Source: a virus
Virus record (IMG/VR): IMGVR_UViG_3300025872_000294
Span: 1 to 24,583 of that record
Strand: one strand, 5' to 3'
Length of the DNA stretch: 24,583 nt
Shown: positions 147-21,006 of the stretch, piece by piece
How the letters are laid out: each line of letters begins with the position of its first letter
Numbering within the stretch: the first letter of the stretch is position 1
Translations under genes and position numbers: made by a program
Notes under the pieces: model-generated
Databases searched by the model: none
Seen by the model: the letters and a program-made list of their open reading frames with translations, nothing else
Told to the model about the DNA's origin: nothing

Positions 147-736
147 CTATCCGGCCAGGGCCATGAAGGCCACGACGTCGGCGCGGCGGTCATCGCCACG
201 CAACGGTGAACGCGGCTTGGCCGCGTCGTAGATCTTCTGGATTTCCTCGGCGTTGTCCGAGTTCTCGCAGACCACGCCCTCGAAGAAGGCCAGCAGGATG
301 GTCAAATCCAGATCGAGAAGGTGTTCGGCTCTGCCGGGGCCGATCAGCCCGGTCATCACTGCCCTCGCCTGGACGGTGTGCCAGTCGGCACTCGCCCAGC
401 CGAACAAGGTGAGGATCAGTTGGTAGGGCGGCCCAGCGAGGTGGTGAAGATGTGGGTCATCGCCTCCTGCAGCATCGCCGAGTCGTCGCCGTCGTCGGGG
501 GCGGCGGCGTAGTAGGCGGCGATGAACTTCTTGTGCTGCTCCTTGCCCAGGGCGTGCTCGATGAGTTGGTCGAGTACGCCGATGGCCTCGGGGTCGTTCT
601 CGTCGATGCGCCCCAGCCGGGCCACCATCAACGACGGCGGTTTGCGCAGCACGCTCCACTGCTGGTCGAACATGGTGAAGGTGGCCGGTTGCCCGGCCAC
701 CTCCGCCATCTCTGCGCTCAAGGCGTCCTGAGTCAT
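147..736 (-). CDS. Tail assembly chaperone, long (minus-1 frameshift) product
   Basis: The predicted G-GT-type fusion of about 196 aa. Translation starts at 736, follows the short chaperone, then slips back one base before its stop at 416-418 and continues to a stop at 147. The downstream part reads as plausible protein (LTLFGWASADWHTVQARAVM, then an acidic helical segment) and has no good start of its own. The long upstream extension of this frame is Arg-rich and looks non-coding. The frame relationship is exactly minus 1, the normal direction in siphoviruses. No canonical X-XXY-YYZ heptamer is obvious; GCTGGGC at about 431-437 and the C/G-rich codons just before the stop are the best slip region. 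Confidence 0.72.
416..736 (-). CDS. Tail assembly chaperone, short (zero-frame) product
   Basis: A 106-aa protein between the major tail protein and the tape measure gene, where siphoviruses encode the lambda gpG-type chaperone. Such chaperones coat the tape measure protein during tail assembly and are not usually in the virion. Its ATG overlaps the major tail protein stop (ATGA at 733-736 region), suggesting translational coupling. The sequence is acidic and helical, with an Ala/Asp-rich C-terminal part ending SLGRPTN. The minus-1 frame is open through its whole second half and continues into conserved-looking sequence. The family call comes from position, size and the overlapping frame rather than from a distinctive motif. 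Confidence 0.8.
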   Translation of the reverse strand: MTQDALSAEMAEVAGQPATFTMFDQQWSVLRKPPSLMVARLGRIDENDPEAIGVLDQLIEHALGKEQHKKFIAAYYAAAPDDGDDSAMLQEAMTHIFTTSLGRPTN

Positions 737-1290
737 CAGGAGATCGCCCCGCCGCCGCTACGGCTGTCCTTCATTAGGACGGTGAACACGGTCTTGCCGG
801 CGACCTTCTCCGCGCGCATCTCGACCGGGATGGTGGCGTAGTCCGCGCCTTTGCGGCGGGCCACCGAGACCGTGCCGGCCTGGAAGCACTGCCGGAACAC
901 CCAGCGCTCCTGTCCGTCCTCGGACTGAAAGCCGATCATCACGCGGGTGGCGGATCCCGGCGCGGGGGGCTCGTACTTGGTCACGCCGGCGCTGGTGGTG
1001 ACGGTGCCGCCGTTGAGCGCGATGCACAGGTTGCGCGCGGTGTTCTCGGCCATCGCAAAGGCGATGGTCACCGTGCGGCTGGTCATGGTGTGCAGCACCG
1101 GGTCGATCTCCTCGGCGACCTCGACCGGGTCGGCGGACACCTCGATGGAGATCTCGCTGCCCTCGGTGGTGTAGCCGACCTCCTTCCAGGCGGCGTTCCA
1201 CGCGGCGCTGACGTCGGTGGGTTCGGTGCTGTTCAGTGCGGCGACGTAGAGGGTTCCCGCGCCCAGACTGATCATTTGGGAGTTGCCCAC
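736..1290 (-). CDS. Major tail protein
   Basis: A 184-aa protein placed directly before the tail chaperones. It builds the tail tube. Residues near the N-terminus (GAGTLYVAALNSTEPTDVS, then WKEVGYTTEGSEISIE) match the usual start of actinophage tail tube subunits, with a 'G.TLY.A......P' opening and a 'GYT.EG' turn. The start is taken as GTG at 1290 because AAAGGAG lies 8 bases upstream (1299-1305). The in-frame ATG at codon 6 lacks such a site, and the longer frame to 1638 reads through another gene. No C-terminal Ig-like domain is visible. A 55-bp gap separates it from the gene upstream. Confidence 0.85.
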   Translation of the reverse strand: MGNSQMISLGAGTLYVAALNSTEPTDVSAAWNAAWKEVGYTTEGSEISIEVSADPVEVAEEIDPVLHTMTSRTVTIAFAMAENTARNLCIALNGGTVTTSAGVTKYEPPAPGSATRVMIGFQSEDGQERWVFRQCFQAGTVSVARRKGADYATIPVEMRAEKVAGKTVFTVLMKDSRSGGGAIS

Positions 1291-1345: not shown

Positions 1346-1654
1346 CTAAATGCGGGTCTGATCCAGCGCCGCCCGCAAGTGGGGGCGTGGAGACATGGTG
1401 GATGTGCCGACCTCGCTGTAGAACAGCACGAAGCCGGGCTGCGTCTTGTCGTATCCGACGTCTGCGTAGGCTGACTGCTCATCGGTGCCGGATTCGGTGA
1501 CGATGGCGCGGTCGCGGCGGGTGGCGGGGTAGTGACCCTTGACGTTGGCGCGGGCGTTGTTGCGGACCTTGTTGCCCACGCCCTCGATGAACTCGCGCAT
1601 CGGCTCGCTACCGGCCAGTTCGGCCAGGGCGTCGTCATTCCAGCGGATCTTCAT
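1346..1654 (-). CDS. HK97 gp10-like head-tail/tail completion protein
   Basis: A 102-aa protein in the connector cluster. The middle and end carry the pattern usual for the HK97 gp10-like family: FVLFYSEVGTSTMSPRPHLR (an aromatic, then E-x-G-T, then M-x-x-R-P-x-L), preceded by a basic helix (EFIEGVGNKVRNNARANVKG). The chosen ATG at 1654 overlaps the upstream stop as ATGA; a longer in-frame start at 1669 lies inside the upstream gene. The family joins head and tail or completes the tail. The assignment to gp10-like is good; the exact virion position is inferred from gene order. Confidence 0.75.
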   Translation of the reverse strand: MKIRWNDDALAELAGSEPMREFIEGVGNKVRNNARANVKGHYPATRRDRAIVTESGTDEQSAYADVGYDKTQPGFVLFYSEVGTSTMSPRPHLRAALDQTRI

Positions 1655-2028
1655 CGCTCCCCCAGCCACAGCCCGCAGGTGAGGATGTACCGTGGCCGGT
1701 CGCTGTCAGGATCGGGCATCCATGCCGGGTTGGATTCAACCCATGCCCCGATGCAGTGCGTGGTGGCGTCGACCGCGCCACGGAAACTCGGCCAGACCGA
1801 GCGCACCTTGGTGGCCAGCTGCCCGGCCACGATCTGATCGGTGGCCCAGCATTCGACCTGGATGGCGGCCCGCCAGTTCTCCTGCTCGGCGCGGCCACCG
1901 GGTAACAGCGTGACCCGGATGGAAGCGGCGCCCGGCAGGTAGTCCGTTGAGATCCGGGTGCCGGTGATCGAGGTGATGGCTCCGGCGGACTTCAGCAGCG
2001 CGACGGCGACGGCGTCGGGGGCGATCAT
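1651..2028 (-). CDS. Tail terminator / tail completion protein
   Basis: A 125-aa protein between the head closure and gp10-like genes. The N-terminus (VAVALLKSAGAITSITGTRI, then a D-Y-L-P-G-A motif, then RVTLLPGG) resembles siphovirus tail terminators of the gpU/DUF3168 kind, which cap the tail tube at its head end. It overlaps both neighbours by 4 bases (ATGA at 2025-2028 and at 1651-1654), so the three genes are probably co-translated. No catalytic residues are expected. A head-closure role cannot be excluded without structure prediction. Confidence 0.68.
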   Translation of the reverse strand: MIAPDAVAVALLKSAGAITSITGTRISTDYLPGAASIRVTLLPGGRAEQENWRAAIQVECWATDQIVAGQLATKVRSVWPSFRGAVDATTHCIGAWVESNPAWMPDPDSDRPRYILTCGLWLGER

Positions 2029-2369
2029 GTGGCGTCCTCGACCAGCCGGATGGTGGCCTTCTCGAAGCCGCCCGCGGACGGGGCGACCAGCACCTCGGGG
2101 GCACCGAGCACCTGATAGGTCTTGGTGCCGATGGTGACCGTGTCGGAGTCTTTCAAGCCGGTACCGTGCGGCAGGAAGATCGTGGTCGTGGACACCAGCA
2201 GCCCTTCCACGTTGGGATCCGGGGTCATGGTGTTTTCGCGGACGATGCGGCAGGTGGTGGTGCGGGTGGTGGCCGCGGAGCGCACCGGGCGACCCAGGAT
2301 GTCGGTGGACGCGGTGGCCGAGGTGCTGGCGATCGTCACGGGGGTGCGCATCAGGCCGCTGGGGTCCAT
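2025..2369 (-). CDS. Head closure (head-tail stopper) protein
   Basis: A 114-aa beta-rich protein beginning MDPSGLMRTPVTIAS and containing DTVTIGTKTYQVLGAPEVL, a pattern shared with phage head-tail stopper proteins (SPP1 gp16-like). Such proteins form the ring that closes the portal after packaging. The ATG at 2369 is favoured: it overlaps the upstream glycosyltransferase stop as TGATG and has GGAGAAGCTG directly upstream. An ATG 12 bases earlier (2381) is possible but has no good site. The gene is separated from the connector it normally follows (5685-6308) by five glycosyltransferase genes. Confidence 0.72.
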   Translation of the reverse strand: MDPSGLMRTPVTIASTSATASTDILGRPVRSAATTRTTTCRIVRENTMTPDPNVEGLLVSTTTIFLPHGTGLKDSDTVTIGTKTYQVLGAPEVLVAPSAGGFEKATIRLVEDAT

Positions 2370-3052
2370 CAGCTTCTCCATTCGGCGATCAGGGCGCGCA
2401 TGGCATCGGGCTGAAACTTGGCCACCCGGTAGCGGAAGCCCAGCCGGTTGGTGGCTTCGTCCAGTTCGGCGGTGCGCGGCTGCGGCGGATGCCACAAGTG
2501 CCATAGCGGCCCGCGCCGCGAGGCCGGGTAGTCACCCGCCAAGGTGCGCGCCGCGCAGCCCAGGGCGTAGTCCTCGCCTCCCCATCCGACGAACCGGGGG
2601 TCGAACGGGCCGCATTGCAGCGCCAGGTCGCGAGTCATCGCCACGATGCCGCCGCCGGCCAGGACATCGTGGGCCTTCTGGCCCAGCGCACGGTCGCGGG
2701 GATACTCGACCTTGGCAGGGTCGAGTTGCAGTGTGGCAGCGGTCGCCTGCTCGGTCAGTCGGCAGACCTTCGTGAACGGCACCGCCCAGCCCACGTCAGC
2801 GGCGGCATAGGCGGCCCATTCCAACGCTTCGGACGACACGAACGAGTCGGAGTCGGCCAAGATCACGACGTCGGCGCTAGAAGCCCCCACGGCGGCGTTG
2901 TACGCCTCGGCCTTGCGCCAGGGCTGTAGCCGGGCGGTGGTCACCGTGGCCGGCCAGCCGCGGGCACGGTACCAGGCCACAGTCCAGTCACGGGCGGCGC
3001 GGCGGTGTGCGTCGTCGTCGGCGTGAGTGCCGACGATCACCTCGACGCTCAT
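2369..3052 (-). CDS. Glycosyltransferase with DxD and GWGGED motifs (cassette gene 5)
   Basis: A 227-aa GT-A fold glycosyltransferase. It has a probable metal-binding DSDS motif at residues 67-70 (in VVILADSDSF) and a GWGGED motif at 156-161, the pattern of the galactosyltransferase-like C-terminal region that binds acceptor and completes the active site. KAEAYNAAV at about 47-55 is typical of the nucleotide-sugar binding part. No signal peptide or membrane segment is seen, so it should act in the cytoplasm. It is the last of five glycosyltransferases in the connector operon and overlaps the fourth as ATGA. The likely job is sugar transfer to a virion protein; sugar and acceptor cannot be read from sequence. 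Confidence 0.85.
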   Translation of the reverse strand: MSVEVIVGTHADDDAHRRAARDWTVAWYRARGWPATVTTARLQPWRKAEAYNAAVGASSADVVILADSDSFVSSEALEWAAYAAADVGWAVPFTKVCRLTEQATAATLQLDPAKVEYPRDRALGQKAHDVLAGGGIVAMTRDLALQCGPFDPRFVGWGGEDYALGCAARTLAGDYPASRRGPLWHLWHPPQPRTAELDEATNRLGFRYRVAKFQPDAMRALIAEWRS

Positions 3053-3816
3053 GCGAGCACCGGGGCCGGGTCGTAGGTGATACGGGGGTCACCGGCGCGG
3101 TAGTACCAATGGTCGAGGAAGGCATCGTTTAGGCTGCCCTGCTGGTCAGCCAGTCGGCCCCAGTCGCGCCAGTGCAGCCCGGTGGACTCGGGAAGGTCGG
3201 TCAGGGCCAGCGCGGCAGCGCCCTGGCGGGCCTTGCGCAGGTACTGCTCCGGCGTGCGGATCGGGAAGTGTCGCACCTCCAGTGCCCCCCACAGCACGTT
3301 GGGGATGCGGTGCGGGTAGGTGACCTGATGGTTGCCCATCTCGATGACCATGCCGGGGTAGGCGCGGGCGGCGACCTTGTGCAGTCGGGCGCGCTCGGTT
3401 GTGCGGTGGCCCATCGCCCGCTGCGGGGCGACGCCGGTGGGATCGGCGTCAGTGACCACGTGGTCGTACAGCCAGGCCGGGGCGACCTGAAAGCCGCCGG
3501 CGGACTTCAGCACGTCGGCGATGCGTTGGCCGGTCAGCGGCACCCAGATCTCGTCGGCGTCGAAAGGCACGATCCAGTCGGCGCCGAGGTGTTCGCGGGC
3601 GTAGTGCGCCAGGGCGGTCATCTTGCGGGACTGATAGTAGGCCGGATCAGGGTCGTCGATGACCTCGCAAGGCAGTGCCTGCAGCAGCTCGCGGGTGCCG
3701 TCGGTCGATCCGTTGTCGGAAACGACGACGTGGTCGACGTGCGCGGCGATGTGGCGCACGCAGGTCTCAATGATGTCGGCTTCGTTCTTGACCATGCTCA
3801 CGGCGATCACGCGCAT
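3049..3816 (-). CDS. Glycosyltransferase family 2-like, DADE motif (cassette gene 4)
   Basis: A 255-aa protein that opens MRVIAVSMVKNEADIIETCV, then VVSDNGSTDGT, the classic start of family 2 / Glyco_tranf_2_4-type transferases that bind the nucleotide sugar. The metal-binding motif is DADE at 86-89, in a WIVPFDADEIW context. A C-terminal segment after residue 150 (RHFPIRTPEQYLRKARQG) is also typical of this subfamily. The start at 3816 overlaps the upstream stop as TGATG, and the stop overlaps the next gene as ATGA. No membrane anchor is visible. It probably acts on phage structural proteins, given its place inside the head-tail operon. Confidence 0.87.
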   Translation of the reverse strand: MRVIAVSMVKNEADIIETCVRHIAAHVDHVVVSDNGSTDGTRELLQALPCEVIDDPDPAYYQSRKMTALAHYAREHLGADWIVPFDADEIWVPLTGQRIADVLKSAGGFQVAPAWLYDHVVTDADPTGVAPQRAMGHRTTERARLHKVAARAYPGMVIEMGNHQVTYPHRIPNVLWGALEVRHFPIRTPEQYLRKARQGAAALALTDLPESTGLHWRDWGRLADQQGSLNDAFLDHWYYRAGDPRITYDPAPVLA

Positions 3817-4493
3817 CAGTAGCCTGTCCCCACGCGCTCGGCGCCGATGTGCTCCACACGCGGCGGGTCGTCTCGGTGGCCCCAGAAGGCACACGCGGTC
3901 TGTGGCTCGTCGGCGAACAGGTTCAGTCCGAACCGGCCCTCGGACTGATCCCCGGCGGGCCAGTCGTGGGTGGCGATGAACTCGCGGCGGAGCAGGTGCG
4001 GGTTCGTGGTGAAGAAGCGGCGGTGCTGCAGCCAATGATGCTGACCGTCGGTGCGGTCGAGGTAGTCGTCCGGGTGTTGGGCCACGATGCCGCCGGCGAC
4101 CTGTTCGGCTCGGTTCCAGGGCTGCCGCAGTAGCGCCATCTGCGCCAGTTGCCGATGGGAGTCCATGACGTTGATCAGGTCGGCCAGGTCGACGTCGACG
4201 TTCATGGTGAAGTCGTCCTCGGTACTGAACACCCAGGGGGTCATGCCTGCTTTGCGCAGGTAGTCCCAGGCGCTGCGGTAGGCGCCGGCGAAGCCCGAGC
4301 GGGTGCCGGTGGAAACGATCTGCCAGCAGTCCGGCGCGTAGGTGGCGTACAGGTGGGCGATGAACGCGGGGTCGTTGCCGTCGGCGTGGATCACCCGGCG
4401 AGTGATCGGGCCGTGCAGCCGGGTGTTCAGCGATGCGATGCTGCGCGCCAAGCAGTCCGCGCGCCCGTCGGTCATGACCAGCAGCGTGATCAT
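3816..4493 (-). CDS. Glycosyltransferase-like protein with TEDDF motif (cassette gene 3)
   Basis: A 225-aa protein starting MITLLVMTDGRADCLARSIA, a GT-A opening. The probable metal site is EDD at 92-94 within WVFSTEDDFTM. The middle region (HHWLQHRRFFTTNPHLLRR) and the C-terminal HIGAERVGTGY segment resemble phage and bacterial glycosyltransferases that modify proteins or lipids, but I do not recognise a specific family. The start at 4493 overlaps the upstream stop as ATGA, which rules out the longer frame to 4661. The cytoplasmic role is inferred, with substrate unknown. It is the least typical of the five, so a related nucleotidyl-sugar enzyme is an alternative. Confidence 0.75.
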   Translation of the reverse strand: MITLLVMTDGRADCLARSIASLNTRLHGPITRRVIHADGNDPAFIAHLYATYAPDCWQIVSTGTRSGFAGAYRSAWDYLRKAGMTPWVFSTEDDFTMNVDVDLADLINVMDSHRQLAQMALLRQPWNRAEQVAGGIVAQHPDDYLDRTDGQHHWLQHRRFFTTNPHLLRREFIATHDWPAGDQSEGRFGLNLFADEPQTACAFWGHRDDPPRVEHIGAERVGTGY

Positions 4494-5053
4494 CGGCTGT
4501 CCTTGCGGATGGCGGCGTGCAGACCGGCAGGGTCGCTGATGCTGCGGTTGCGGGATCGGGGGCTGACGTGGGCGTACAGCCGGGCGTCGGGGATGTGCTC
4601 GTAGGTGGCGCCGCGGCGCACCAGCGTCAACCACAGCGCCCAGTCCTCCCAGGCCGGCCACGGCTGGAAGCCGCCGGCGGACAGGATCATCTCGCGGCGC
4701 ACCATCGCCGAGATCGGGATGGGGTTGAGCCGCTCGATGTTGCGCTGGGTCAGGTCGACCTCGTAGCTGCTGCCGTCGAGATGCACCTCGATCAGCGACG
4801 GCACGCGGATGTCGGCGTGACCTTTTGACAGTGCGGTCACGTAACCGTCACCGAGCTGATCGTCGGCATCCAGGCAGATCACCCACGAAGTTGTTGCGGC
4901 GGCGATGGTGTCGTTGCGGGCCTCGGCCAGGGTGTCGGCGTGGCGGTGGATCACCGGCACGCCTTGGCGCAGCGCGCTGGGGATGGCACGCTCTTGGGCC
5001 AGGTCGACCCATTCGGCGGTACCGAAGGTGGCCACGCAGACGGTCACGTCCAT
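4490..5053 (-). CDS. Glycosyltransferase family 2-like, DADD motif (cassette gene 2)
   Basis: A 187-aa compact family 2 transferase. It opens MDVTVCVATFG, has ARNDTIAAATTSWVICLDAD with DADD at residues 62-65 for metal and nucleotide-sugar binding, and carries a WEDW motif at 135-138 where family 2 enzymes have the catalytic-base ED. At this length it is little more than the catalytic domain. The ATG at 5053 overlaps the upstream gene by 10 bases. A GTG at 5047 would give the GTGA overlap used by its neighbours, so the true start may be two codons later. It probably works with the other four enzymes on a common glycan or on several virion sites. Confidence 0.83.
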   Translation of the reverse strand: MDVTVCVATFGTAEWVDLAQERAIPSALRQGVPVIHRHADTLAEARNDTIAAATTSWVICLDADDQLGDGYVTALSKGHADIRVPSLIEVHLDGSSYEVDLTQRNIERLNPIPISAMVRREMILSAGGFQPWPAWEDWALWLTLVRRGATYEHIPDARLYAHVSPRSRNRSISDPAGLHAAIRKDSR

Positions 5054-5688
5054 AGCGCGCTGCGTTCCCGGTACAGGCTGCGATCGGCAATCATGCGTCG
5101 CCGCATCATCAGGTAACTGGCGTCCCATTCGGCCTTGCCGGCCATCGGGTGCAGGTGCTCGACGATGGCGTCGGGGGCGTGGGCGTAGGCTCCTCGCGCG
5201 GTCGCGGTGCCCACCAGTTCGTCATCGACGTACTCGTGGATGTAGTCCTCGCACAACAGTCCGGGTCGGTGGTCAATCAGGCCCAGCGCGGTGTAGTCGC
5301 GGACCACCAGCGTATGCGTGGAGTGCCCGTGGGCAGTGCGCTCGTTGGCCAGATCGTTGGTCCCGATGACGCGCACCTGCTCGGTGAGCAGCGCCTCGCA
5401 GGTCTCAAGCCAGCCCGGATGAAAGTGCAGGTCGATTGCGCCGGTAAAGATCAGCGGCTCGTCGCTGGCAGCCACGGCGGCGTTGACCTTGGCGGCGTAG
5501 TCGCCGCGAGCTCGCGGCGAGAACTTCAGGTGATCATGGTCGGCCACGGCCTCGGCCACGGCATCGTCGCCGTCGGTGATGGCGAACAGTAGCCGCGCCC
5601 GGTCAGTGGATGCACCCAGCGACGCCACCAGCCGGGCCACCTGTTCGGCGCGGCCCAGCATCGGCACAATGACTACGCAGTCGCTCAT
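5044..5688 (-). CDS. Glycosyltransferase-like protein, atypical metal motif (cassette gene 1)
   Basis: A 214-aa GT-A-like protein, first of the cassette, overlapping the head-tail adaptor stop as ATGA. It begins VVIVPMLGRAEQVARLVASL, has a central FHPGW motif at about residues 89-93 and an acceptor-side region CEDYIHEYVDDELVGTA followed by VEHLHP. Related phage proteins usually have a G-A-D-D-x-F-H-P-G-W signature; here the equivalent segment reads GAIDLHFHPGW (from residue 83), so the first Asp of the metal site is replaced by Ile. It may use a relaxed DxD or be catalytically weak. The family call is firm; activity is uncertain. Confidence 0.78.
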   Translation of the reverse strand: MSDCVVIVPMLGRAEQVARLVASLGASTDRARLLFAITDGDDAVAEAVADHDHLKFSPRARGDYAAKVNAAVAASDEPLIFTGAIDLHFHPGWLETCEALLTEQVRVIGTNDLANERTAHGHSTHTLVVRDYTALGLIDHRPGLLCEDYIHEYVDDELVGTATARGAYAHAPDAIVEHLHPMAGKAEWDASYLMMRRRMIADRSLYRERSALWT

Positions 5689-6308
5689 CGGGGCCGGATG
5701 GTGGATGCCCCGCCGCGGTATCGGTCGAGGATGATGCGCTGCCGCGCCGAGAGCCCGGAAGCGTCGCCACTGGAACCGGCGCCGTAGGTCACCGAGTAGT
5801 CGGCCAGTCGCTCACTGGCCAGCCCGCGAGGGTTGTTGATCTCGTCGACGGCCAGGGACAGTGCCACGGCCTTGAGGTCGGCGGGGATCACATCGTAGCC
5901 GGCGGTGTAGGTGACCGTGACCAAGTCGACGTCGGGATCCTGCAGCTGCAGTTCGGCGCGGGCGTGGTCATAGAACCACTGGCCCGAGGTCAGGGTCACC
6001 CCGTCTGCCACGACGGTGGACACCGAGACCACCGGGCGCTGCGGGAGCGTGATCACGCCGATCAGTCCCGAGTAGTCGTCGAACCGGGTCGTCGACGGGA
6101 TCACCGAGGTGATGGTCAATCCGTAGGCGGCGGTCAGGGTGTGAGTGTAGGTCTGGCTCATCAACCCTTGGCCGGTGTAGCCGGTGACCAGCGCGGTCGC
6201 CAGTGTCACCGCCTGGGCGGCGGCCTCTGGGTCCAGAGTGGTGCCCAGCCGGGTCTCCAACTCTTCGACGGTGACCAGCAGCAGCGGGTCTACGACGATG
6301 ATCGGCAT
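5685..6308 (-). CDS. Head-tail connector (adaptor) protein
   Basis: A 207-aa protein following the major capsid gene. The N-terminal helical region (VTVEELETRLGTTLDPEAAA, then ALVTGYTG) and the middle (VTVTYTAGYDVIPADLKAVA) are typical of HK97 gp6 / SPP1 gp15-like adaptors, which dock on the portal. The ATG at 6308 has a GAAGGTGA site upstream. It is separated from the capsid gene by a 77-bp gap holding a strong hairpin, and its stop overlaps the first glycosyltransferase. In most related phages the head closure gene would come next; here that gene is 3.3 kb downstream. Confidence 0.8.
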   Translation of the reverse strand: MPIIVVDPLLLVTVEELETRLGTTLDPEAAAQAVTLATALVTGYTGQGLMSQTYTHTLTAAYGLTITSVIPSTTRFDDYSGLIGVITLPQRPVVSVSTVVADGVTLTSGQWFYDHARAELQLQDPDVDLVTVTYTAGYDVIPADLKAVALSLAVDEINNPRGLASERLADYSVTYGAGSSGDASGLSARQRIILDRYRGGASTIRPR

Positions 6309-6385: not shown

Positions 6386-7246
6386 TCAGGCGGTGATGCG
6401 GACGTCGCTCACGGCGAGGAACGACGGGCGGGTGACCTTCACGCCGTAGACGTGCAGACCCTTCACCTGCTCGGCGAACTTCTTCTCGACCGGGTCGCTG
6501 CGCAGGCTGCGCACCTGCTCGGCCAGCGTGGTCGCGTAGGTGCTGCCAGCGATGCAGAACTTGTTCGTCGCGCTGGTGCCCGACGCGGCGGTCGGCAGGT
6601 TGTTCGACTTGTAGATGGCCATGCCGGCGGCCTCGCCGACGCGACCGTTGGCCCGCGTCGCGGCACCGGCAGCATCACCGGCGGACACGAAGCGCGAGTC
6701 CTTGAGCAGCAGCCCGTAGAACTGCGGGGGCACGACAGCCCAACGCTGCTCCGGGGGCACGTCGGAGCTGTCCAGCAGCACCGACAGATCGACCAGATGG
6801 TCGTAGGCACCGGCGGCGGTGGAGACGGTGATCTCCTCGATGTTGTTGTCCGGGTTGGAGAACGACACGCCCGAGACCATCTTGTCGAGGACCAGGGCGT
6901 CCATCGTGTTGGCCAGCCCGTATGCCGCGCGGTCGATCGCCTCGGCCATCAGCCGCCCGCCATCGAAGGTCTGCGCGCGCTCGACGTCGTCGAGGTAGAA
7001 CGCGAAGTACTTCTTCTGGTCGAGCAGCAGGCTCTGCTGCGAGTCGTCGATGTCCTCGACGGTGATGTCCGCGCCGGTGTAGGAGCGGATGGTGGGGTCG
7101 ACGATGGACGTGATCTTCACGGCCTCGGCGTTGGCCGAGTCGGCCTCGTAGTCGCGGTTGCAGATGCCGGCGGCGACGGCAACCTTGCTGGTGTTGGTCA
7201 GGATTCGCGCGCTCCAGACGGTACGCGCGGAGTTGGACAGAGCCAC
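6386..7246 (-). CDS. Major capsid protein
   Basis: A 286-aa shell protein directly after the scaffold gene. It shows the usual phage capsid layout: an N-terminal arm (MALSNSARTVWSARIL), a region with VEDIDDSQQSLLLDQKKYFA, a loop with AYGLANTMD, and a C-terminal RSLRSDPVEKKFAEQVKGLH followed by VYGVKVTRP, which closely matches the P22-coat/gp5-like HK97-fold family common in actinophages. The GTG at 7246 is chosen because AAAGGAG lies 7 bases upstream. As the most highly expressed virion gene it stands alone between a scaffold gene and a strong hairpin. Confidence 0.9.
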   Translation of the reverse strand: MALSNSARTVWSARILTNTSKVAVAAGICNRDYEADSANAEAVKITSIVDPTIRSYTGADITVEDIDDSQQSLLLDQKKYFAFYLDDVERAQTFDGGRLMAEAIDRAAYGLANTMDALVLDKMVSGVSFSNPDNNIEEITVSTAAGAYDHLVDLSVLLDSSDVPPEQRWAVVPPQFYGLLLKDSRFVSAGDAAGAATRANGRVGEAAGMAIYKSNNLPTAASGTSATNKFCIAGSTYATTLAEQVRSLRSDPVEKKFAEQVKGLHVYGVKVTRPSFLAVSDVRITA

Positions 7247-20002: not shown

Positions 20003-20374
20003 TCATGTGACGCACCGCCCGAACGCGTCGAAGTGGGCGAACCGGGCGGCGAGGTCGCGCCGGTCGCACGTGCGGTACAGGTGGTTGAGCAGGCCTTGGG
20101 TGGTCATGCCGATGCGTTCGGCGACGGTGTCGACGTCAGTGGACGAGATCAGCGCAGTCTCGATGTCGTCGCAGGTCGGACAGCCGTAGTCGCAGACCTT
20201 CATCGCCATGATCCGCTCGTGCAGGTCCGGCTGGACGCGGGTCACCGCGCCCCGCAGGATTTCGGACACGCGCTTGTGATCGCAGTCGACAGTCCGACTG
20301 ATGGCGATGTTGGTCCAGCCGTGGTCGCGCAGGGCTTGGAGATGGGCGCGCGCGGCGTCGGCGGGGAGCATCAT
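20003..20374 (-). CDS. HTH protein with a CxTCDxI module
   Basis: A 123-aa protein with two likely DNA-binding parts. Residues about 19-47 form a helix-turn-helix (WTNIAISRTVDCDHKRVSEI). Residues about 65-112 form a second segment, CPTCDDIETALISSTDVDTV then TTQGLLNHLYRTCDRRDLAARF, that has a close relative in the next gene upstream (20371-21006). The ATG at 20374 overlaps that gene's stop as ATGA; an ATG directly following it is also possible. Thirty-four bases separate its stop from the exonuclease start. It is likely a regulator or accessory DNA-binding protein. Confidence 0.68.
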   Translation of the reverse strand: MMLPADAARAHLQALRDHGWTNIAISRTVDCDHKRVSEILRGAVTRVQPDLHERIMAMKVCDYGCPTCDDIETALISSTDVDTVAERIGMTTQGLLNHLYRTCDRRDLAARFAHFDAFGRCVT

Positions 20375-21006
20375 GCCGACCACCTCGCGTCGTAGGCGTC
20401 GACGACGGCACGCGGCACGCGGCCGCGGCTCGGGCAGTCAAGGCCGCGCTGTGCGGCCCACTCGCGGATCGCGGGCCAGTCACGGTCTGGCTGGGGCTCG
20501 GGCTCTTCCTGCGGCTCGGGCGCCTCGGTCTCGCCGAGCGCGGCCAGGATCTCGGCGCGGCGCGCCTCCAGTGTCGCCAGTTCTGCGCGCAGGTCCTCCC
20601 GGCCGTTGAAGGCCACGACGCGCTCGATCAGGATGCGCACCCACGCCACCGCTTCGCTGGCGGCCTCGGCCACGCCCTGGTCCTCGTGGTCCAGGTACTC
20701 GCTCAGATGCGGGGCGATGGTCTCCCCGATCCAGGTGGCGTCGGGGTCCTGCTCGGGGACATCCACGAACACCGGGCCGTCGATCGCCGCGGTGTCACCG
20801 TCCACGGCAGGCACCTCGGCAGGCTCCAGCATCGGCTCGTCGCCGTAGGTCAGCCGCTCCATCAGGTCCTTGCGGGAGTGGTTGATCAGGTGTCGGTGCA
20901 GGGTCGGGGTCGGGGTGCCCAGCGTCGCGCCGATGTCCTCCAGCGCGCTGGTTCCGGTCTCGACGAGGGTGGCGATGTTGTCGCAAGTCGTGCATTGATC
21001 GTTCAC
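20371..21006 (-). CDS. DNA-binding protein: CxTCDxI module plus Lsr2-like C-terminal domain
   Basis: A 211-aa protein. Residues 5-52 (CTTCDNIATLVETG, then LHRHLINHSRKDLMERL) repeat the module of the downstream gene. An acidic middle with a coiled coil (LRAELATLEARRAEILAALG) leads to a final 36 residues, IREWAAQRGLDCPSRGRVPR then VVDAYDARWSA, which match the C-terminal DNA-binding domain of Lsr2, including the RGR AT-hook-like loop and the W-A....G.....RGR.P..V..AY pattern. Lsr2 silences foreign AT-rich DNA in actinobacteria. This protein could silence or antagonise silencing. GTG at 21006 overlaps the upstream stop as GTGA. Confidence 0.72.
   Translation of the reverse strand: MNDQCTTCDNIATLVETGTSALEDIGATLGTPTPTLHRHLINHSRKDLMERLTYGDEPMLEPAEVPAVDGDTAAIDGPVFVDVPEQDPDATWIGETIAPHLSEYLDHEDQGVAEAASEAVAWVRILIERVVAFNGREDLRAELATLEARRAEILAALGETEAPEPQEEPEPQPDRDWPAIREWAAQRGLDCPSRGRVPRAVVDAYDARWSA

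Follow-up and report, generated by a model that had tools for sequence, protein, structure and literature searches.

The 24,583 base pair (bp) window analysed here, a fragment of a virus record (IMG/VR IMGVR_UViG_3300025872_000294) with a G+C content of 67.6%, carries five consecutive glycosyltransferase (GT) genes, GT1 to GT5, at positions 2369-5688 of the minus strand. From comparison with other phages we propose that the products of this cassette probably work in sequence to assemble an O-glycan, with the C-terminal serine of virion proteins as acceptor. The five genes recur in order by the capsid genes of dozens of divergent phages, which supports the assembled pathway that a sequence-only reading of the window had suggested, and the capsid proteins encoded next to the cassette mostly end in -GS or -AS despite belonging to different families.

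Organisation, enzymes and distribution of the cassette

5044-5688 (-): GT1, GT-A-fold glycosyltransferase, 214 amino acids (aa); GAIDL motif; AlphaFold2 and Foldseek
4490-5053 (-): GT2, family-2-like glycosyltransferase, 187 aa; DADD motif; PF00535, 29.1 bits
3816-4493 (-): GT3, GT-A-fold glycosyltransferase, no Pfam family, 225 aa; EDD motif; phrog_3047, 5.2e-5; AlphaFold2 and Foldseek
3049-3816 (-): GT4, glycosyltransferase, 255 aa; DADE motif; PF13704, 58.7 bits, and PF00535, 38.1 bits
2369-3052 (-): GT5, glycosyltransferase, 227 aa; D-x-D and GWGGED motifs; PF13641, 30.9 bits, and phrog_1721, 4.9e-15
5685-6308 (-): head-tail adaptor Ad1, upstream flank; phrog_442, 5.6e-28
2025-2381 (-): head closure Hc1, downstream flank, ATG at 2381 or 2369; phrog_501 / phrog_763, 2.3e-4
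1651-2028 (-): tail terminator, next structural gene past Hc1; phrog_123, 9.4e-10
6386-7246 (-): major capsid protein, C terminus ...SDVRITA (no terminal Ser); phrog_267, 2.5e-59
736-1290 (-): major tail (tube) protein, 184 aa, C terminus ...KDSRSGGGAIS; PF25681, 2.9e-4 (below cut-off), and phrog_476, 0.025

The coordinates and the chain of 1-10 bp overlaps given in the sequence-only reading were confirmed; the junctions overlap by 4 bp (Ad1/GT1), 10 (GT1/GT2), 4 (GT2/GT3), 1 (GT3/GT4), 4 (GT4/GT5) and 1 (GT5/Hc1). PHROG matches of both flanks place the block between the head-tail adaptor and the head closure gene. That these two are normally adjacent holds in AGM16 and in Che8, where a 4 bp overlap joins adaptor and stopper.

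Each of the five enzymes has a GT-A fold (GT1 and GT3, by structural model) or a GT family match (GT2, GT4 and GT5, by profile). Pfam cut-offs are passed by GT2 (PF00535), GT4 (PF13704) and GT5 (PF13641); GT1 matches PF00535 at 5.7e-4, below the cut-off, and GT3 gave no Pfam match, its sole PHROG match being phrog_3047. AlphaFold2 models were built for these latter two, with predicted local distance difference test values of 96.0 for GT1 and 95.5 for GT3. Using Foldseek, the GT1 model matched 6yv7 (1e-9) and the GT3 model SpsA (1h7q, 2.1e-8), the solved GT-A enzymes matched by the two models being SpsA, PcManGT, ppGalNAc-T and TarP. A lack of GT-A folds in most of the five genes had been named beforehand as an outcome that would refute the proposal; the two doubtful genes, GT1 and GT3, do show the fold.

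The metal motifs had been described as differing among the enzymes, and acidic positions are conserved in each of them, the invariant ones in alignments being D86 in GT1, D62/D64/D65 in GT2, E92/D94 in GT3, D86/D88/E89 in GT4 and D67/D69 in GT5. The GAIDL motif of GT1 stood less well: only the second Asp (D86, unchanged across 43 relatives) is invariant, and most relatives have GADDL. BLASTP among the five GTs detected no family-level similarity (best match: 24 residues, E = 0.002). They are thus not recent duplicates, and tandem duplication was rejected, in line with the earlier claim. Furthermore, the ratio of nonsynonymous to synonymous substitutions between the window and its near relative L113 is 0.36-0.46, i.e. 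below 1.

For GT1, GT3 and GT4, scans of IMG/VR yielded 304, 152 and 122 relatives, respectively. The loci fetched gave 159 non-redundant contigs, which were chosen by their carrying these genes, so that counts among them do not measure prevalence; all five GTs are present on 57 of the 159. The order is almost always GT1-GT2-GT3-(x)-GT4-GT5, where x is a variable slot, with recurring junctions of -10, -4, -1 and -4 bp. Upstream, the two neighbouring genes mostly encode Ad1, capsid or scaffold proteins from several unrelated PHROG and capsid families; the two downstream neighbours mostly encode Hc1, a tail terminator, a neck protein or Ad1. Some phages have the cassette ahead of the adaptor and others behind it, and its site is therefore the capsid-connector junction in general. 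Among phage records megablast found no close relatives of the window, and in 50,697 phage records the five-gene set is nearly absent: GT1 occurs in three distant Arthrobacter phages, and GT3 and GT4 occur together only in the metagenomic GX15bay. Of 84,980 genomes of bacteria and archaea, GT1 was found in 7. One cultured strain with the full cassette is Parafrankia soli NRRL B-16219: all five GTs of its prophage (L106) lie between adaptor and connector, the capsid protein ends in ...LTTAGS, and a tail-tube-like protein of 142 aa ends in ...LAPLGS.

Several variants of the cassette were observed. Of the 61 proteins encoded in slot x (L008:8563-9180 and 60 further ones), 24 are S-adenosylmethionine methyltransferases and 5 are nucleoside diphosphate-sugar epimerases or dehydratases, and acyltransferases, formyltransferases and PIG-L proteins also occur; such enzyme swapping might diversify the glycan. 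Located between adaptor and connector genes, a single 700-aa open reading frame (ORF) of L006 (1993-4095, +) joins a GT1-like domain to a GT5-like one through an unassigned middle part. The contig L201 (the same as L013 and L093; 6765-7442 and 7494-10786) has a full cassette whose GT5 is divergent from GT1-GT4. Moreover, in L028, a close relative of the window, an HNH-endonuclease-like ORF (4558-5301, +) separates GT1 and GT2; L113, with a GT2-GT5 protein identity of 93-97%, lacks it, and the ORF resembles an insertion of the homing type.

Terminal serines of capsid and tube proteins

A terminal Ser was found in 62 of 65 capsid proteins of phages with the cassette, compared with 37 of 130 from phages with no cassette detected (Fisher test, 6e-21). 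In the three capsid families for which control groups were available, Ser ends account for 17/20, 10/10 and 9/9 proteins with the cassette versus 13/50, 18/34 and 6/46 without it (8e-6, 5e-3 and 8e-7, respectively); a fourth family, with no control group, has 26/26. The tube protein behaves likewise, ending in Ser in 39 of 41 phages with the cassette and 13 of 61 without (1e-14). The tube protein of the window falls into one group with those of other cassette phages, of which 34 out of 36 end in Ser. By comparison, 28 of 392 GT proteins from the same contigs do so. The residue before the terminal Ser is Gly or Ala in 54 of the 62 capsids. The Ser codons vary (TCC, AGC, TCG, TCT), which suggests that it is the residue that is under selection; an artefact of ribosome binding site or codon was rejected in view of the mixed codons and of the same effect in tube proteins.

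We therefore envisage the five genes as a phage-encoded, late-expressed glycan assembly line, late co-expression being expected because of the overlapping operon. Soluble GT-A enzymes would use nucleotide-sugars from the host to extend, one after another, a short O-linked glycan attached to structural proteins of the virion. In the window phage its acceptor would most likely be the C-terminal Ser of the tail tube (...SRSGGGAIS), and in most related phages the C-terminal Ser of the capsid as well as that of the tube. Catalytic activity, sequential action, acceptor residue and sugar identity are inferred. The glycan may benefit the phage by shielding its surface or through interaction with the host or the environment.

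A broader proposal, that a mobile five-enzyme module, carried by a widespread class of phages not recognised before, and a C-terminal Gly/Ala-Ser tag were acquired together, on capsid and tube proteins of unrelated families, with the O-glycan built on the tag, stands in our judgement at even chances. If it is true, a terminal -GS on capsid or tube would predict virion glycosylation from sequence alone. With a five-enzyme cassette present in many environmental phages and a simple acceptor predicted for it, one can directly test how widespread virion glycosylation is and what it is for, and since P. soli NRRL B-16219 has the full cassette, the claim can be tested in a cultured actinobacterium.

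Counter-evidence and rival explanations

Several observations weigh against a glycan on terminal serines. All support for the virion glycan is comparative. Despite the cassette, the window capsid ends in Ala (...RITA), its tube protein ending in Ser (...SGGGAIS), and in the nearest relatives L113 and L028, which carry the cassette too, neither the capsid (...ALA) nor the tube protein (...SGGTI) ends in Ser; the acceptor rule therefore fails or shifts in the small clade of the window. About a quarter of phages with no cassette detected still have a terminal Ser, and the records of such phages rarely hold another family-2 GT (5/37 versus 1/50), a weak explanation for their Ser ends. The Fisher tests ignore relatedness, and tree-based independent pairs, though almost all in the expected direction, are too few for significance. 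Furthermore, in Myrna, reported to be glycosylated, no tube or sheath protein with a terminal Ser was found in the part of the record covered, where the capsid was not identified.

In seven contigs with no cassette detected (L255, L308, L330, L358, L359, L361 and L368) capsid and tube protein both end in -GS, which suggests GTs beyond the fragment; these phages are candidates for other glycosylation systems. In favour of the terminal-Ser reading, the capsids of phiSASD1, D6E and AGM16 end in A, A and V; all three belong to the window's capsid family, and the part of each genome covered lists no GT.

Terminal Ser without a detected cassette, and the lack of it in the capsids of the window clade, would also fit glycosylation of virion proteins at sites other than the C-terminal Ser, e.g. 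loops of minor tail or head proteins, with the Ser ends reflecting ancestry or assembly constraints. Several connector proteins and chaperones of cassette phages end in Ser as well. However, the association with Ser was obtained separately in three controlled capsid families and in tube proteins, with mixed codons, and the ends match those of Che8 and Firecracker; we hold this explanation to be unlikely.

The window comes from a siphovirus-like, soil-type actinobacterial phage, probably a temperate one. Its gene order runs from integrase, repressor-like helix-turn-helix, Lsr2 domain, exonuclease, RecT, RusA, TerL and portal through protease-like genes, scaffold, capsid, adaptor, the five GTs, Hc1, tail terminator and neck to the tube protein, chaperone-like ORFs and the apparent start of the tape measure. 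The Lsr2 DNA-binding domain lies at the C-terminus of the product of 20371-21006 (-), which has an unrelated N-terminal part and also a WhiB-type PHROG match.

The integrase and repressor-like genes speak for the idea that the cassette alters a glycolipid or cell-wall glycan of the host surface, blocking superinfection or aiding progeny release in the manner of serotype-conversion gtr genes. GT4 resembles the polyprenyl-phospho-GalNAc synthase PpgS (8.6e-8, well below the NCBIfam cut-off), which would suit this idea. Nevertheless, overlaps of 1-10 bp tie the cassette into the late head operon, a long way from the repressor; neither a membrane GT nor a flippase or bactoprenol enzyme was found, the neighbours are head and connector genes, and the five GTs show no membrane-like segment (maximum 19-residue hydropathy 1.31). 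It would also leave the association with capsid and tube C-terminal Ser unexplained, and we regard it as quite improbable.

Glycosylation of phage DNA, with sugars on hydroxymethylated bases as a defence against restriction, is known for phage GTs elsewhere (Pyle 2024 and Markine-Goriaynoff 2004, in a passage of PMC12619734; PMC10202952), and GT1 weakly matches part of phrog_2675, a PHROG labelled DNA methyltransferase (1.9e-6), but it is very unlikely here because the partner genes are rare or absent (TET/JBP in 2/50 cassette records, C5-DNA-methylase in 4/50, thymidylate synthase/hydroxymethylase in 0/50, and none of TET/JBP, C5-DNA-methylase or thymidylate synthase in the window, whose record may be incomplete), and DNA hypermodification was rejected on this ground; moreover, the cassette belongs to the head operon, and its presence varies together with the C-terminal ends of the virion proteins.

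Comparison with known glycosylated phages

Virion glycosylation by phage GTs is already known from mycobacteriophages. Beyond these and some of their relatives, the Freeman 2023 abstract is said to report little evidence for it. Neither the connector cassette of five enzymes nor its spread among uncultured phages nor the correlation with terminal Ser was found in the literature searched, which did not include Freeman 2023, and as far as could be checked the cassette and the terminal-Ser signature are new. PMC13252515 was set aside as support, its topic being host and not virion glycans.

Among phages carrying parts of the cassette, Caudovirales GX15bay (MK557849, mangrove soil metagenome) has homologues of GT2, GT3 and GT4 in the same order by head genes. 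Its cassette adjoins TerL, however; GT1 was not found in it, GT5 reaches only 13 bits, and it has further GTs, a methyltransferase and other carbohydrate-active enzymes. Gordonia phages such as Syleon (genes 124-127) have homologues of GT3 and GT5 (110 and 92 bits), but these lie near the right end of the record, away from the head genes, and GT1, GT2 and GT4 were not detected in the genes tested.

For Che8 (cluster F), passages in PMC11256854, PMC12363180 and PMC12619734 cite Freeman et al. 2023 for virion glycosylation involving the GT genes 108-110, and passages in PMC12619734 and PMC12363180 report glycans at the C-termini of capsid and tail tube. Like most cassette phages, Che8 has phage-encoded GTs together with a capsid and a tube protein ending in -GS (...NKTGS and ...YSDGS); a check of 8 further structural proteins of Che8 found none with a terminal Ser. 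Location, tailoring enzymes and a Ser signature common with Che8 lend comparative support to the virion glycosylation proposed in the sequence-only reading for capsid or tail, although in the window the capsid lacks the terminal Ser and only the tube protein has it. Che8 gp109 and GT5 are homologous (28.7% identity; profile score 90.6 bits), gp108 is a weak homologue of GT2, and gp110, reported to be essential, matches GT3 marginally (12.7 bits); GT1 and GT4 have no clear counterpart. In contrast to the five genes in the connector operon here, the three Che8 GTs lie at the far right genome end. A contrast within cluster F was uninformative, since GT matches are near-universal there and 268 of 269 capsid matches span 80% or more of the Che8 gene.

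Homology to characterised virion GTs of mycobacteriophages is clear for GT5 (gp109 of Che8 and gp35 of Firecracker) and weak or absent for the other four. Firecracker (cluster O, Corndogvirus), a relative of the glycosylated Corndog, differs in having fewer enzymes, in the position of its GT cluster between portal and protease, and in that homologues of GT1-GT4 were not detected. It nevertheless carries GTs and an O-methyltransferase within the head block (gp33-36; PMC11600133), its gp35 matches GT5 at 96.3 bits by profile, and its capsid (...PLVGS) and tube protein (...KGDS) end as they do in the cassette phages.

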